A DNA stretch of 64,000 nt, from positions 22,539-86,538 of IMG/VR virus record IMGVR_UViG_3300012920_000025. The stretch is one strand, 5' to 3'. Shown in pieces: positions 10,279 to 53,109 of the stretch. Source of the stretch: a virus. The position numbers and the translations under genes are program-made. Within the stretch, counting starts at the first letter, position 1; each line of letters opens with the position of its first letter. Below the pieces are notes generated by a model. It had not been told where the DNA came from, did no database searches, and saw nothing but the letters and a program-made list of their open reading frames with translations.

Positions 10279-11390
10279 TGTACTTTCAGATTATTGATAA
10301 CAACAAGAAGTGCCTGAAGGTGTTTGCTTCGGGAAACTTTGTTGATTATTCAGGACAAAAAGAATTCTCCAAGACATGGAGACATTCCGCACATCTTTCA
10401 AATAGAGATGATATAGACTATGCTATTCTGTATACAGAACAAGGAGATATATTTGCTTCTTGTCCGGGTTTTGTGCAAGAAGCGTGGCAGTCAAGTTCAG
10501 GTAGAGTTGCCGCGCTAATAAAATCTGCAAAAACCACTCAGTGTGATATCGAAAACAACTGTATTTACGATTTCATTCCCGATAATTTTTTGCGGGATTT
10601 TTTGTCAGACAAGCAAGCGATCATCAGGCATATATTCGAAAGTAAATCAAAACCCTGGCACTACGATGTATTAAGGAAAGCACACATACTCACCGAGGAG
10701 ATGAATGCGAACTACAATATATTCGATGGCAAACTAAGACGAACGAACTATAGCGTGTTCGGTACAAAAACAGGAAGACTATCAAATGCAAAGGCAGGCA
10801 TACCGATACTAACACTGAAGAGGGAAGACAGGCACCTACTTCAACCTACAAATGACTTTTTCTTGGAATTAGACTTCAATGCGGCTGAGTTGCGGACCCT
10901 GCTATCGCTATCGGGACAAGAGCAACCCGAAGAGGACATCCACGAATGGACATCTGCAAAGGCAGGTGTGGACAGAGAAGATATGAAGAAGCGAACGTTC
11001 GCGTGGTTGTACAACCCTGAAGCGTCAGATTCGCTCTTAGAGCGACTTTATGATAGAAATGGTATAAAGGATAGGTTTTATGATAAAAATGCCGTAAAAA
11101 CGCCTTTCTTGCGTCAAATTATGACAGACGACCGCAGAGCACTAAACTACATCATACAAAGCACAAGCAGTGATATATGCATAACACAGGCGTATAGGTT
11201 GCGAGAACTTTTTAAAGAATGTAAAACAAAAATCTGTTATTTAATGCACGATTCTGTTATACTAGATTGTGCAAAAGAAGATAAGGAAAAGTTTCTCGAA
11301 GCAAGAAAAATATTTGCTGATACAAGTTTTGGCCAATATAGAGTCAACATGTCTATGGGTAAAAACTTCGGGGAAATGAAAAGAATATAA
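10278..11390 (+). CDS. Minimal family A DNA polymerase
   Basis: This 370-residue protein holds the palm and fingers motifs of DNA polymerase I. Motif A is DFNAAELR near residue 199 (canonical DYSQIELR), preceded by TGRLS. Motif B is RxxxKxxxFxxxY near residues 236-248, with Phe at the position that selects against dideoxynucleotides. Motif C is LMHDSVILD near residue 325. The usual Gly after the motif B Tyr is Asn. There is no room for a 3'-5' exonuclease domain, and the thumb must be short. The GTG start overlaps the previous stop by one base. It is probably active for gap filling or specialised synthesis, because a DnaE polymerase is also encoded at 24177. Confidence 0.8.
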   Translation: MYFQIIDNNKKCLKVFASGNFVDYSGQKEFSKTWRHSAHLSNRDDIDYAILYTEQGDIFASCPGFVQEAWQSSSGRVAALIKSAKTTQCDIENNCIYDFIPDNFLRDFLSDKQAIIRHIFESKSKPWHYDVLRKAHILTEEMNANYNIFDGKLRRTNYSVFGTKTGRLSNAKAGIPILTLKREDRHLLQPTNDFFLELDFNAAELRTLLSLSGQEQPEEDIHEWTSAKAGVDREDMKKRTFAWLYNPEASDSLLERLYDRNGIKDRFYDKNAVKTPFLRQIMTDDRRALNYIIQSTSSDICITQAYRLRELFKECKTKICYLMHDSVILDCAKEDKEKFLEARKIFADTSFGQYRVNMSMGKNFGEMKRI

Positions 11391-46534: not shown

Positions 46535-46608
46535 GCCTCGGTAGCTCAGTTGGATAGAGCAACAGACTTCTAATCTGTGGGTCATAGGTTCGAATCCTAT
46601 CCGAGGTG
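46535..46608 (+). tRNA. tRNA-Arg (anticodon UCU)
   Basis: A full cloverleaf can be folded: acceptor GCCTCGG with CCGAGGT, D-stem GCTC/GAGC, anticodon stem ACAGA/TCTGT around loop CTTCTAA, and T-arm ATAGG/CCTAT with TTCGAAT. No CCA is encoded, and a T run follows. It reads AGA, a codon used heavily in this genome. Confidence 0.93.
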
Positions 46609-46630
46609 CTTTTTTTAAAAAAGGATTAAC

Positions 46631-46855: not shown

Positions 46856-47035
46856 ATGAGTTGGTTTTATATAATGTGGACTGTATGTGCGCTGTGTTTT
46901 GTCGCATCTCTTTATCTAACTGTAAAAGCGTTACACAAAGTTGCAAACATAAATACCGTTAGAATTAATGAAAACAAGAAAAGACTTGAAGAATTTGCAA
47001 AGAGGGTTCACGGAGTAGACGAAAATGAATCTTAA
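46856..47035 (+). CDS. Small membrane protein, unknown function
   Basis: This 59-residue protein has one span (MWTVCALCFVASLYLTV) and a helix rich in Asn and Lys. It starts after GGGAG and overlaps the first methylase by 11 bp, so it may be co-translated with it. Confidence 0.6.
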   Translation: MSWFYIMWTVCALCFVASLYLTVKALHKVANINTVRINENKKRLEEFAKRVHGVDENES

Positions 47036-47918
47036 AACACCACTGAGATACCCAGGAGGAAAGTCCAGGGCAATCAAGAAACTAAGTCCAGATTTGCCAA
47101 AGAGTTTCAAAGAGTTCAGAGAACCGTTCCTCGGAGGAGGTTCGATGGCGCTGCACATAACTCAGGACAGACCTGGTACTAAGGTGTGGGTAAATGATGC
47201 GTACTACAACCTATACAACTTTTGGGTTCAGTTGAGGGATAAAGGTGCAGCACTGCATCAGGAGTTAGCAAATATTAAAACACCCATTGAATACGTGTCC
47301 AAACCTCTACGAAAGAAGAAAGTTGACAAGTCACAATGGGATAAGTCTATCGTTGATAATATTGACAGACATAGATCTCTTTTCAACAAGGCGAGAGAGG
47401 AGATCTCTACAGTGGATGACTTTACCAAAGCAGTATACTTTTTCATACTAAATAAGTGTAGTTTTTCAGGTCTTGGTGAGAGTAGTTCATTCTCAGAGCA
47501 GGCATCAGAGCAAAACTTCAGTATGACTGGTATCAATAAGTTGCCGCTATACTCTAAATTAATCAAAGATTGGAAGATTACTAATCTTGACTATAATCAG
47601 GTAATGAGTATGCAAGGTGATAGTTGCTTTGTGTTTCTTGACCCTCCCTATGACATCAAGGATGATTTGTATGGAAAGAATGGCAATATGCACTCAGGTT
47701 TCGATCACATGAGATTCTATGAGGATGTCGTTAAGTGTGACCATGACTGGATGATTACATACAATTCAAACGAAGTTTTAAGAAAGAGGTTTTCAGATTA
47801 TTATTTCAACGATTGGGACTTGACATACACGATGAGATCTAGTAAAACATATACAGAAGCACAGAAAGACCGCAAAGAATTGTTAATAACAAACTATGAG
47901 AGGGGTAGTGGTGTCTAA
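47025..47918 (+). CDS. DNA adenine methyltransferase of the Dam/D12 class, module 1
   Basis: This 297-residue protein has PGGKSR near residue 10, the AdoMet motif EPFLGGGS near residue 35 and the catalytic DPPY near residue 207. That gives alpha-class N6-adenine methylation of a short target. It overlaps the EcoRI-like nuclease gene downstream, so it likely protects the phage genome from that enzyme. Its target site cannot be read from sequence. Confidence 0.93.
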   Translation: MNLKTPLRYPGGKSRAIKKLSPDLPKSFKEFREPFLGGGSMALHITQDRPGTKVWVNDAYYNLYNFWVQLRDKGAALHQELANIKTPIEYVSKPLRKKKVDKSQWDKSIVDNIDRHRSLFNKAREEISTVDDFTKAVYFFILNKCSFSGLGESSSFSEQASEQNFSMTGINKLPLYSKLIKDWKITNLDYNQVMSMQGDSCFVFLDPPYDIKDDLYGKNGNMHSGFDHMRFYEDVVKCDHDWMITYNSNEVLRKRFSDYYFNDWDLTYTMRSSKTYTEAQKDRKELLITNYERGSGV

Positions 47919-48435
47919 TATTTCACAGAGAGACGAAGGATTTAATGGCGGTATCCAGTCGGGTACCACTGCATTTGACGAGGAAAGCAAGACGTTAGAT
48001 AGATACTTGAAGGTTGCAAGAGACAGACTTGCAGGTGAGTTTCCAAATCTGACGATGGTTAAAATGTTCGGTGAAGAACATAAAGAAAAATACCTTGGCG
48101 GTAACTTGACAGGATTCTCTCCCGATGGGGGAGCATGGTTTGATTCTAATGAAAACCTCGTCGCAGCATTTGAAGGCAAGAAGCAGAACAAGAGAGGCAA
48201 CGCCTACGAGCGATGGTTTAAAAATGCTCAAGTTGCTAACCTCTGTAATAAAGATGTGACATATGTTACGCTCTGCACAGGTACAGGTGCTCAGAAGGGC
48301 GAATGTTTAGATAAACTCAGGAAACTCGGTAAACTATTTTTTACATCTAAATACAAATTTTTTATGAAACCAGAGGGGATGACCTATCGCGAAGTGGAGG
48401 ATATTATGAGGTCTACTTTGAGAGGGTTGGCATGA
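47911..48435 (+). CDS. EcoRI-family restriction endonuclease, module 1
   Basis: The GTG at 47911 follows GAGGGG; an ATG at 47896 gives five more residues. The 174-residue protein has PDGG (Asp72) and FEGKKQ (Glu88, Lys90), the D..ExK catalytic centre. Residues 96-101 are GNAYER, matching the GNAIER motif with which EcoRI reads its target; MunI-like enzymes share it. It is shorter than EcoRI (277 residues). Overlap with methylases on both sides makes a restriction-modification role likely. The target may contain AATT, by analogy only. Confidence 0.8.
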   Translation: MSNISQRDEGFNGGIQSGTTAFDEESKTLDRYLKVARDRLAGEFPNLTMVKMFGEEHKEKYLGGNLTGFSPDGGAWFDSNENLVAAFEGKKQNKRGNAYERWFKNAQVANLCNKDVTYVTLCTGTGAQKGECLDKLRKLGKLFFTSKYKFFMKPEGMTYREVEDIMRSTLRGLA

Positions 48436-49451
48436 CTCCACTCTTCATGTGGGCAGGTGGTAAGACAAAACTCATAGACAACCACTACGGACCCTTCCTT
48501 CCAGAATGCTTTGACAAATATCACGAACCTTTCTTTGGCGGCGGCGCTATGTTCATTTGGGCATATAAGCAAAACCCTAATGCAAGTTTCTATATTAACG
48601 ACATTAACCATGATATTGTTAAGGTATACCAGACCATCAAGAACGATGTGTCAAACTTTATAAATATTGTTGATGACTATGAAGCAAAATATATCTCTCT
48701 TGATCCCCCGAAGATGAGGGATAAGTCATCCGGTAAAACAGTGTGGGTCGACCACCCAACTGGAAAGAAGGACGCAGACCTTGAGACTAAACATAAGTTG
48801 CCAAAGAACAAATATGATTGGCACAAGATATATGCAGAGAAGCAAACAAGAAGGACGTTCTTCTTTAAGACTAGGCAGACTTACCAGCAAGATTATAGGA
48901 AGTGGTCTAAGACTGAAGAGGCAGCGTGTCTTTACTTCCTGATGAAGACAGCATTCAATGGCGTCTGGCAGTTAGGTAAAGATGAGTACGGAAGATTTAA
49001 TACACCATGTGGTCTGATGCGTCACGACAATGACATCTACGATAAACAGAACGTCATGCAGTGGCATCAAGCATTACAGAACTGCAAGATTACCAGTCAT
49101 GACTTCTCAGATACAATTAGTGATATTAGTGGCGGGTCTTATGTTTTCTTAGATCCTCCCTATCGTTCGGCATCCGATGCAGAGCGAACCTTCGCTGACT
49201 ATGGAACTGAACTTGGTGACGAATTTCAACAAAAAGTTCTTGACTTCTTTCATGAATCATGGAATAATGGAGCATATTCTTTGTTATCGAACCGTGACTG
49301 GGGAGATAACTTCTTTGAAGATAGAAATAAAGGTTGCAAAATAGAATACTTTGATGTAACATATACCGTGGGTAGAAAAAAGAAGCAGGAAGACGACACC
49401 CACACAGCAACTAAGGCAACAGAGATTCTGATGATTGGAGAGCGAAAGTGA
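48432..49451 (+). CDS. DNA adenine methyltransferase of the Dam/D12 class, module 2
   Basis: This 339-residue protein has the parts of a D12 methylase: WAGGKTKLI near the start, EPFFGGGAMF, NDINHD and a VFLDPPYRS block near residue 240. It differs clearly from module 1, so it is not a recent duplicate. It overlaps the nucleases on both sides by 4 bp, so this four-gene run is one translational unit. Confidence 0.93.
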   Translation: MTPLFMWAGGKTKLIDNHYGPFLPECFDKYHEPFFGGGAMFIWAYKQNPNASFYINDINHDIVKVYQTIKNDVSNFINIVDDYEAKYISLDPPKMRDKSSGKTVWVDHPTGKKDADLETKHKLPKNKYDWHKIYAEKQTRRTFFFKTRQTYQQDYRKWSKTEEAACLYFLMKTAFNGVWQLGKDEYGRFNTPCGLMRHDNDIYDKQNVMQWHQALQNCKITSHDFSDTISDISGGSYVFLDPPYRSASDAERTFADYGTELGDEFQQKVLDFFHESWNNGAYSLLSNRDWGDNFFEDRNKGCKIEYFDVTYTVGRKKKQEDDTHTATKATEILMIGERK

Positions 49452-49975
49452 TTGATCTTAAAAAAGATGTAGACTGGAAGAAAGTGTTCGGTGTCATTAA
49501 CTCAGTGAGTACACTAACTCGTAATCAAACCAGACCACTCCGCACTGAGATTGTGGAAATGGCTATTGCAAAATACAGTGGCGGTAAGTTGAAGTATGTC
49601 GGTGATTCTGCCGATGGTATGGACTTCGAAGGTTCTGATGGTCTTCGGTATGAGTGCAAGATGCAAGGTACAATCTTTCAACCAACTACACCACACAGTG
49701 CTAAGGTTGTTTTAAAGAATCACTACTCAACCAAGAAACAGAATGTCAAGAAGACGTTTGACAAGATGATCTTTATTGATACCAAGAAGAGAAAGGTCGG
49801 CGTTGTAGACTTCGAGCAACTCTCAATAGAGAACAAGTCTGCTGATGTTAAATGTTGGGTAAAAGATCAAAGCGTTGTGAACATCGTTGCTGATGGCATA
49901 ACCGCTGATAAGGGTTATGACGGATTAAACATGGAAAAAGTTATTTTTGAAGCAATACAAAATAGTTTAAAATAA
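49448..49975 (+). CDS. Probable restriction endonuclease, module 2
   Basis: This 175-residue protein starts at GTG 49448, overlapping the second methylase stop. A PD-(D/E)xK-type core is visible: DGMDFEG (Asp59) then RYECKMQ (Glu69, Lys71), followed by a helix. It lacks the EcoRI GNAxER motif, so it is another specificity. Its place directly after a methylase is the main evidence that it restricts DNA. Confidence 0.7.
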   Translation: MIDLKKDVDWKKVFGVINSVSTLTRNQTRPLRTEIVEMAIAKYSGGKLKYVGDSADGMDFEGSDGLRYECKMQGTIFQPTTPHSAKVVLKNHYSTKKQNVKKTFDKMIFIDTKKRKVGVVDFEQLSIENKSADVKCWVKDQSVVNIVADGITADKGYDGLNMEKVIFEAIQNSLK

Positions 49976-49978
49976 GTC

Positions 49979-50007
49979 TTGACAAAACAATAAACAAATT
50001 ATATGAT
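49979..50007 (+). promoter_or_regulatory. Sigma-70 promoter
   Basis: TTGACA at 49979 and TATGAT at 50002 are 17 bp apart, just after the restriction-modification genes. It would drive the ParB-like gene. Confidence 0.85.
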
Positions 50008-50032
50008 GATTAAAAGAAAAGGAGGTGAAGCG

Positions 50033-51190
50033 ATGAACACAGCACAAGTTATACCTATCTCACGCGCACAGCGATTGCCGACGGCTGCAATTAAGGAGGT
50101 CATTGAATACGTTGAGAAAGTAGCAGTTAAAATCAGAGAAAATCAATGTCCTGTACGAACCCAGTATTATGGAAGTCCAACGCTTATACGAGAGTATTTG
50201 GTGCCGGTTGACCTACTCTCAACAGACATTAAGTCACAAAAGCGAAGAAAGGGCAAAAACTCAGCAATTGTATCTCAACTATCGAAACAGTTTGAGCGTG
50301 ATGGCCAGAGTAAGGGTATTTGTTGTAAGGTTGTACAAGATGAAGACGGTAACTGGGAGATTATTATCAGGTGGGGTAACCACCGTTGGAAAGCAGTCTT
50401 GAACTTGGTATCGAGAGGTTCGAATATTCTTGGTGTAGATCAAGGTTATGTTTGGATTTCTATATTCAACGAGTATCATGCAGATCATGAACTTAATGGT
50501 TTGCAAACAATCGAAAACAACCTACAAGAAGCATCGGAACCTGCTGATGATGAGGATAACCTAGATTCTTTAGATCAAGCGTGGAAGGATGGAGAACTTG
50601 ATACCACCGAGAAGTTCTCGAAACTGTCTCAAGAAGACAAGCAAGAGCAACTAAAAAAGTGGATTGAATCTTTCATGGGTGCAAACGTAAAGCAACCATC
50701 TAGGTTAATCAAAAAGTTCTTTAAAAGAAACTCTGCAAAAGTTAGAACTGATACGAAAGAAGCAGAAGATCATCAGGATCACTGGAATCTTTATGAAAGT
50801 CATAACTTTGGTGGAATTAAGTTTACGAATGCTGGAAAAAGGAACAACACGGTATACTACAATGGGAAGACCCATGCTCAATACCACATGAACGGTGATT
50901 TCTGGGCAGGAGCAACCATTCAGCAGATGAGTCATGCCAAACTTGGACTGCTCCCGAATCAGAACCCAAAGGCAGACGTTGTACATCTTGTCGTCTCACT
51001 GCCCTTAAATGTACTGAAAGATGGTCAAGCAAAAATACAAAGTCGAAGACAGGAATGGGAAAACGCTGTTAAGCATTGGAATCAAACACTTGGCAAGATT
51101 GTTGACTATCTTTACATTATGCCCCAGACTGGTCCAGAAGAGTTGAACTCAAAGAAGGGGAACCCTTGGATTAAAAAGATTAAATTTTAA
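50033..51190 (+). CDS. ParB-like N-terminal domain protein
   Basis: ATG 50033 follows AAAGGAGGTG. The frame also opens at 50003, inside the promoter, which is therefore rejected. The 385-residue protein has a ParB/Srx-like region near residues 50-125: REYLVPVDLL, then QLSKQFERDG, then WEIIIRWGNHRWKAVL. A charged linker and a C-terminal domain with YNGKTHAQYHMNG follow. ParB-like phage proteins include DNA-binding and nuclease factors. It has its own promoter after the restriction-modification block, so any link to restriction is open. Confidence 0.65.
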   Translation: MNTAQVIPISRAQRLPTAAIKEVIEYVEKVAVKIRENQCPVRTQYYGSPTLIREYLVPVDLLSTDIKSQKRRKGKNSAIVSQLSKQFERDGQSKGICCKVVQDEDGNWEIIIRWGNHRWKAVLNLVSRGSNILGVDQGYVWISIFNEYHADHELNGLQTIENNLQEASEPADDEDNLDSLDQAWKDGELDTTEKFSKLSQEDKQEQLKKWIESFMGANVKQPSRLIKKFFKRNSAKVRTDTKEAEDHQDHWNLYESHNFGGIKFTNAGKRNNTVYYNGKTHAQYHMNGDFWAGATIQQMSHAKLGLLPNQNPKADVVHLVVSLPLNVLKDGQAKIQSRRQEWENAVKHWNQTLGKIVDYLYIMPQTGPEELNSKKGNPWIKKIKF

Positions 51191-53033: not shown

Positions 53034-53109
53034 GGACCTGTAGCTCAGGGGTTAGAGCAGTCGGCTCATAACCGATCGGTCCTCGGTTCAAATCCGAGCG
53101 GGTCCACCA
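53034..53109 (+). tRNA. tRNA with CAU anticodon (Met or lysidine Ile)
   Basis: The acceptor GGACCTG pairs with CGGGTCC, the D-stem is GCTC/GAGC, the anticodon loop is CTCATAA in a GTCGG/CCGAT stem, and the T-arm is CTCGG/CCGAG. CCA is encoded. The first pair is G-C and the anticodon stem lacks three G-C pairs, so it is not initiator tRNA. Either elongator Met or the AUA-reading Ile2 type is possible. Confidence 0.93.

Follow-up and report, generated by a model that had tools for sequence, protein, structure and literature searches.

The window analyzed here, a 64-kb stretch of DNA that is part of an 86,538-base IMG/VR virus record, codes for a protein set that includes, among others, a DNA polymerase, a DnaB-like helicase, a ribonucleotide reductase, and GroEL. 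Between positions 47025 and 49975, it carries four overlapping genes on the plus strand in the order M1, R1, M2, and R2. M1 (47025 to 47918) encodes a D12 methylase, the likely partner of R2. It is followed by R1 (47911 to 48435), which, on the basis of its motifs, a structural model, and a profile alignment, is predicted to be an AATT endonuclease with the EcoRI fold; by M2 (48432 to 49451), a D12/Dam-class N6-adenine methylase and putative AATT protector; and by R2 (49448 to 49975), a second PD-(D/E)xK restriction endonuclease-like protein. The M1 stop at 47918 lies downstream of either candidate start of R1 (GTG at 47911 or ATG at 47896), the M2 start at 48432 spans the R1 stop, and the R2 start at 49448 spans the M2 stop. 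The gene 3' of R2 (50003 to 51190) gives a weak ParB-like match, and genes for tRNA-Arg (tct) and tRNA-Met (cat) lie at 46535 to 46609 and 53034 to 53109, respectively.

The R1 open reading frame extends from 47896 to 48435 on the plus strand and would encode 179 aa from the ATG or 174 aa from the GTG. The latter is the likelier start because a GAGGGG lies just 5' of it and the ATGTCTAAC start of a relative (L107) is in register with it. The preliminary description had viewed R1 as a shortened nuclease, with 174 residues against the 277 of EcoRI, and this length holds for the likelier start. Residues are numbered below from 47896, so that five must be subtracted for the 174-aa form. Three segments characterize the protein: P76-D77-G78-G79, with the predicted catalytic D77 (48121 to 48132); the predicted catalytic pair E93-x-K95 (48172 to 48180); and GNAYER (residues 101 to 106; 48196 to 48213), the candidate base-reading segment. 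To collect homologues, only the patterns PDGGAWF and A[VA]FEGKK were used, so that the conservation of GNAxER does not depend on the way in which the sequences were collected. The resulting alignment of 48 sequences comprises the window protein and 47 of the 50 distinct sequences recovered; two shorter than 150 aa (L044 and L066) and a copy of the window protein (L007) were dropped, and one cut by a contig end (L019) was kept. In all 48, the PDGG, E-x-K-K-Q, and GNAxERW motifs are invariant, including G101, N102, A103, E105, and R106, with the Y of GNAYER as the variable position; the cyanophage homologues have exactly GNAIER.

Homologues of R1 are found at 59 loci in IMG/VR and in 65 annotated phage records, all of them Synechococcus phages. 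The protein falls in PHROG 2400, which is labeled as being of unknown function (E = 5e-28). No relatives were recovered in a genome scan of bacteria and archaea, in a tblastn search of plasmids, or in a viral scan with the single protein as the query, and NCBIfam and PADLOC returned no match. A Pfam scan up to an E value of 10 matched no restriction enzyme family, which places R1 outside what we take to be the Pfam EcoRI sequence family.

An AlphaFold2 model of R1 built on 37 sequences from the window and the viral loci (pLDDT 85.3, pTM 0.78) places E93 and K95 in a strand spanning residues 88 to 96 and GNAYER at the N terminus of a helix spanning residues 104 to 117. When this model was compared with solved chains by VIA-align, EcoRI entries occupied ranks 1 to 5 among the chains compared (Z, 11.6 to 11.9; rmsd, 3.1 to 3.2; 145 residues aligned at 16 to 17% identity), ahead of the next entry at 10.3; lower-ranking entries included the nuclease Can2 (up to 10.3), BstEII (9.5), BsoBI (7.9), and MunI (7.5; rmsd 3.7 over 135 residues). 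Foldseek searches of PDB with the same model yielded nothing at E <= 0.001, the best match being BbvCI at 0.017, and EcoRI was not among the best 50 rows; in the viral structure library, a homologue from S-RIM2 was the sole match at E <= 0.001. The R1 sequence profile likewise did not retrieve EcoRI or MunI from PDB at E <= 10. In a single direct comparison by hhalign, the R1 family aligned with the real EcoRI, as represented by an annotated plasmid gene, with a probability of 81.6 and an E value of 1.1e-5. This alignment brings PDGG, the E-A-K of EcoRI, and GNAIER all into register, with EcoRI having about 21 more residues between E-A-K and GNAIER. In the account of EcoRI given in section 20 of PMC4081073, Asn141, Ala142, and Arg145 of GNAIER contact the bases of AATT, and Ala142 wedges the two central pairs apart. 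The equivalents of these readers in R1 are N102, A103, and R106, which are among the residues invariant in 48/48 sequences. Thus, the EcoRI-like motif order proposed in the preliminary description is borne out by both conservation and alignment, and the model positions the catalytic strand and the start of the GNAYER helix as in the EcoRI-type catalytic and reading loops that it had anticipated. Together, these results support R1 being a PD-(D/E)xK endonuclease whose predicted fold is closest to that of EcoRI among the chains compared.

The M2 protein matches TIGR00571 with 146.8 bits, above the Dam family cutoff of 114.85, and its best solved relative is DpnM. An M2-type gene lies 3' of R1 in 52 of the 59 viral loci. 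In 37 of these, it begins 25 bp or less from the aligned ends, whereas the other 15 have an insert of 0.9 to 1.5 kb; two of the seven loci without such a follower (L019 and L066) end at a contig edge just after R1. S-RIM2 and several other loci have another uncharacterized gene between R1 and its methylase (L002:6620-7675). In EcoDam, according to PMC10073500, K9 contacts the guanine in the first base pair of GATC, L122 and P134 read the third pair, and R124 reads the fourth. All 42 M2-type orthologues have I, M, or V in place of K9 and Q in place of R124; the S-CREM2 methylase retains a K9-like lysine. M2 therefore remains within the enzyme class but lacks both of the residues with which Dam reads the outer G:C pairs, as a change of specificity from GATC to AATT would need. 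We infer that M2 is the cognate methylase of R1 and would methylate AATT, with the Q at the R124 position possibly reading adenine.

The genome sequences of R1 carriers show a corresponding bias. The 59 carrier loci (380 kb) were taken without deduplication, and counts are identical or close to it within L013/L014/L020, within L054/L055, and within L060/L061. None of the 16 4-bp palindromes is depleted more strongly over these loci than AATT, which occurs 820 times against 2,075 expected from trinucleotides (z = -36.8). The per-locus ratio has a median of 0.37 and lies below 0.5 in 40 loci and above 0.8 in a single one. Depletion in the window is moderate, with 202 occurrences against 327 expected, and when a further 20 kb of its record is included, the count is 258/430 (0.60). 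When synonymous codons were shuffled with protein sequence and codon usage held fixed, the observed-to-expected ratios ranged from 0.00 to 0.57 in 9 sets with R1 and from 0.60 to 1.10 in 11 sets without it, these 20 sets including five of 13 named R1-less cyanophages. The two groups overlap by the Markov measure, where one carrier (G014) has a ratio of 0.75 against 0.70 and 0.78 in two records without R1 (G013 and G019). In the lineage of the window operon, to which these three belong, four more records without R1 have ratios of 0.96 to 1.08. Among the named phages, for each of which a single 30-kb stretch was used for counting and the whole record for checking the absence of R1, the carriers S-RIM2, S-BM1, and S-CREM2 have ratios of 0.24, 0.27, and 0.67, respectively, and the 13 R1-less cyanophages have ratios of 0.77 to 1.00. 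The suggestion that the target may hold AATT is thus strongly supported by genome statistics.

The most extreme bias is found in three related records (G001 to G003; 73.9, 111.9, and 90.0 kb) that carry R1 and in which our searches found neither a D12 nor an N6_N4 methylase. They are 82.9 to 87.2% identical where aligned, G002 and G003 share identical stretches, and the records may be incomplete. In the 77,044 nonredundant bases of G001 and G002, AATT occurs 0 times against 247 expected, and the stretches of G003 likewise lack it. Of 136 tetramers, the AATT-free stretches lack just two, AATT and CCGG, and 9 of the 10 R1-less phages compared alongside them lack CCGG as well. Carriers of M2 retain some AATT (e.g., 19/89, 7/79, 13/130, and 78/135). 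Complete loss in the one group and partial loss in the other are as an AATT cutter without and with a methylase, respectively, would leave, which suggests that in these carriers a restriction enzyme is used without its antidote. A countercase is provided by two further fragments (G006 and G007) that have R1 and no D12 methylase within the fragment and yet contain AATT (28/39.5 in L047, 45/57 in L052, and 137/197 in L095). It is possible, though we put it somewhat short of probable, that some phages possess an AATT cutter, have no methylase, and are immune solely through an AATT-free genome, and that the same strategy with other unrecognized 4-bp cutters would explain the loss of one further palindrome each (GTAC, TTAA, CTAG, or GATC) from other marine phages.

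On the basis of these observations, we consider it very likely that R1 and M2 constitute an AATT restriction-modification pair of a marine phage, in which R1 is a type II (IIP-like) cutter with an EcoRI-like fold and M2 protects by methylating an adenine of AATT. By analogy with EcoRI, R1 would act as a homodimer on the 4-bp palindrome, with the start of one GNAxER helix entering the major groove at each half-site, and would cut both strands using D77, E93, K95, and Mg2+. Methylation by M2 would mark and protect newly made phage DNA; the carriers have in addition thinned out AATT, and the three in which no methylase was found have purged it. The DNA broken by R1 would most likely be unmodified host DNA and/or that of competing phages, the sequence being compatible with either as the main target.

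A different reading of the likeness to EcoRI and, to a lesser degree, MunI is that R1 recognizes six base pairs built around AATT, for example, GAATTC or CAATTG. The preliminary description had held that the bases flanking AATT could not be guessed and, from the presence of both hexamers in the window, that neither is obviously avoided. Both do occur there, 6 and 19 times, respectively, including at positions 10362 and 13527, close to the places it had named, but it is AATT itself that is depleted in the window and wholly lost from three carriers. Counts of AATT with each flanking pair, of the kind that it had proposed, show depletion whatever the flanks: over the 59 loci, GAATTC (35/40.6), AAATTT, and TAATTA are not lost beyond the loss of AATT, and CAATTG is only slightly depleted (44/58.5), while AATT is missing in every context from the carriers in which no methylase was detected. 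A 6-bp site was rejected on these hexamer counts and appears quite improbable; R1 seems to read no bases flanking AATT. A methylase above the Dam family cutoff, with DpnM as its best solved relative, could also mean that M2 is an ordinary GATC methylase and that R1 cuts GATC. This idea, to which we give almost no credence, conflicts with the replacement of both outer-base readers in the 42 orthologues and with the role of GNAxER as the AATT reader in EcoRI (PMC4081073, section 20). It is likewise at odds with the counts, since GATC is only mildly depleted in the 59 loci (1,589/2,209) and is present at 110 to 124 copies per 20 kb where AATT is at zero; GATC was rejected as the R1 target on the grounds of the counts and the M2 residues together.

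It could further be argued that AATT is lost to host restriction and that R1 is a co-occurring general or structure-specific nuclease involved in recombination or host DNA turnover. Phages without R1 do lose other palindromes (GTAC, TTAA, CTAG, CCGG, and GATC), and the CRISPR nuclease Can2 is a structural match to R1, if a weaker one than EcoRI. However, a structure-specific nuclease would not be expected to have a motif that reads sequence or to be linked to a methylase, and phages recorded on the same strain, Synechococcus WH7803, split by the presence of R1: S-PM2 (0.97), S-SCSM1 (0.95), and S-RIM8 (0.80) lack it, and S-RIM2 and S-BM1, with the low ratios given above, have it. As both groups are recorded on one strain, restriction by the host does not account for this contrast, and we regard this explanation, too, as unlikely. 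The loss of AATT is tied to R1, in keeping with an AATT-specific R1-M2 pair.

The flanking genes M1 and R2 probably form a second restriction-modification pair, given the likeness of the R2 model to restriction enzymes and its invariant D59, E69, and K71. The model (pLDDT 90.7) resembles 3ndh most closely (Z, 9.9), followed by DpnI (9.6) and NaeI (9.1), and the three residues, of which the latter two form an E-x-K motif, are conserved in all 34 sequences aligned; 341 relatives of R2 are present in the viral collection. The best solved relative of M1 is 7m6b (E = 3.5e-60), which we take to be a Burkholderia enzyme acting on GTWWAC. Eight close operon relatives retain both M1 and R2; in seven of them, M1 runs directly into R2, and the whole record contains no R1. 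We considered M1 as the partner of R1 and rejected it on account of this direct abutment and of the M2-like partner in 52 of the 59 loci. In the six of these seven that were aligned, the match to the window ends at 47903 and picks up again at 49449 (at 49460 in L105). Because homology breaks at both of its edges, the R1-M2 segment (47904 to 49448, plus strand) looks like a cassette inserted between an older M1 and R2. Among palindromes in R2 carriers, AGCT ranks first or close to first in depletion by ratio (14/121 in the eight close relatives and 180/995 in 70 others, where CCGG stands at 49/292); it is also depleted in most cyanophages tested regardless of R2. CGCG is absent from some R2 carriers.

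With EcoRI and RsrI, R1 shares the fold, as judged by its best structural match, the PDGG...E-x-K arrangement, the GNAIER-type reader, and the AATT core. It differs in its smaller size, in missing the approximately 21 residues between E-x-K and GNAIER, in showing no sign of reading the outer G:C pair, and in its Dam-class (D12) partner, the partner of EcoRI being annotated as EcoRI family. MunI likewise has a PD-(D/E)xK site and an AATT core (CAATTG) but is the weaker structural match and has a 6-bp site. MluCI, Tsp509I, and Sse9I are AATT cutters of bacterial origin that would share the target proposed for R1 and are likened to it by specificity. The review PMC4081073 groups MluCI with EcoRI and MunI as a possible case of a mosaic. 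According to the same review, bacteriophages rarely carry type II enzymes. Chlorella viruses also encode type II restriction and methylase genes (e.g., CviAII), but they are viruses of eukaryotic algae (PMC4081073). Among phages, gp11 of S-CREM2 is an R1 homologue with an intact GNAIER that GenBank labels "restriction endonuclease EcoRI"; this label, which is annotation only, indicates that the resemblance had already been seen. The associated methylase differs from M2 at the K9 position. The accessible text of the S-CREM2 paper (PMC10665884) does not discuss the likeness to EcoRI and gives no specificity for gp11. The neighborhood of the R1 homologue in S-CREM2 (L073) includes genes annotated as a Cas9-like nuclease and a SAM hydrolase. 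In the open-license literature searched, we found no report on AATT in cyanophages.

The R1-M2 family is thus probably a phage-borne, reduced, 4-bp-specific version of type II restriction-modification, in which the Dam-class partner is altered and some forms appear to lack a methylase. It would represent a type II family in marine phages, including cultured cyanophages, whose specificity can be deduced from the site that is missing. Since R1 lacks the EcoRI loop and appears to read four rather than six base pairs, and the outer-base readers of M2 are changed, the pair may offer a natural case of a change in recognition length. If other phages do rely on losing the site of an unrecognized 4-bp cutter, the palindrome that a genome lacks would show what its weapon recognizes. 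Several 30-kb cyanophage stretches wholly lack one palindrome, namely, GTAC in S-SM1 (L077) and Syn1 (L079), TTAA in S-ShM2 (L076), and CTAG in S-SM2 (L075), and such losses are possible signs of other unrecognized 4-bp cutters. GATC is missing from R1-less relatives of the window operon (L186 of G013 and L191/L192 of G019; 0 against 57 and 106 expected, respectively). CCGG is absent from nearly all of the cyanophage stretches examined (e.g., L068, L070, and L074), with 13 copies present in S-SM2.
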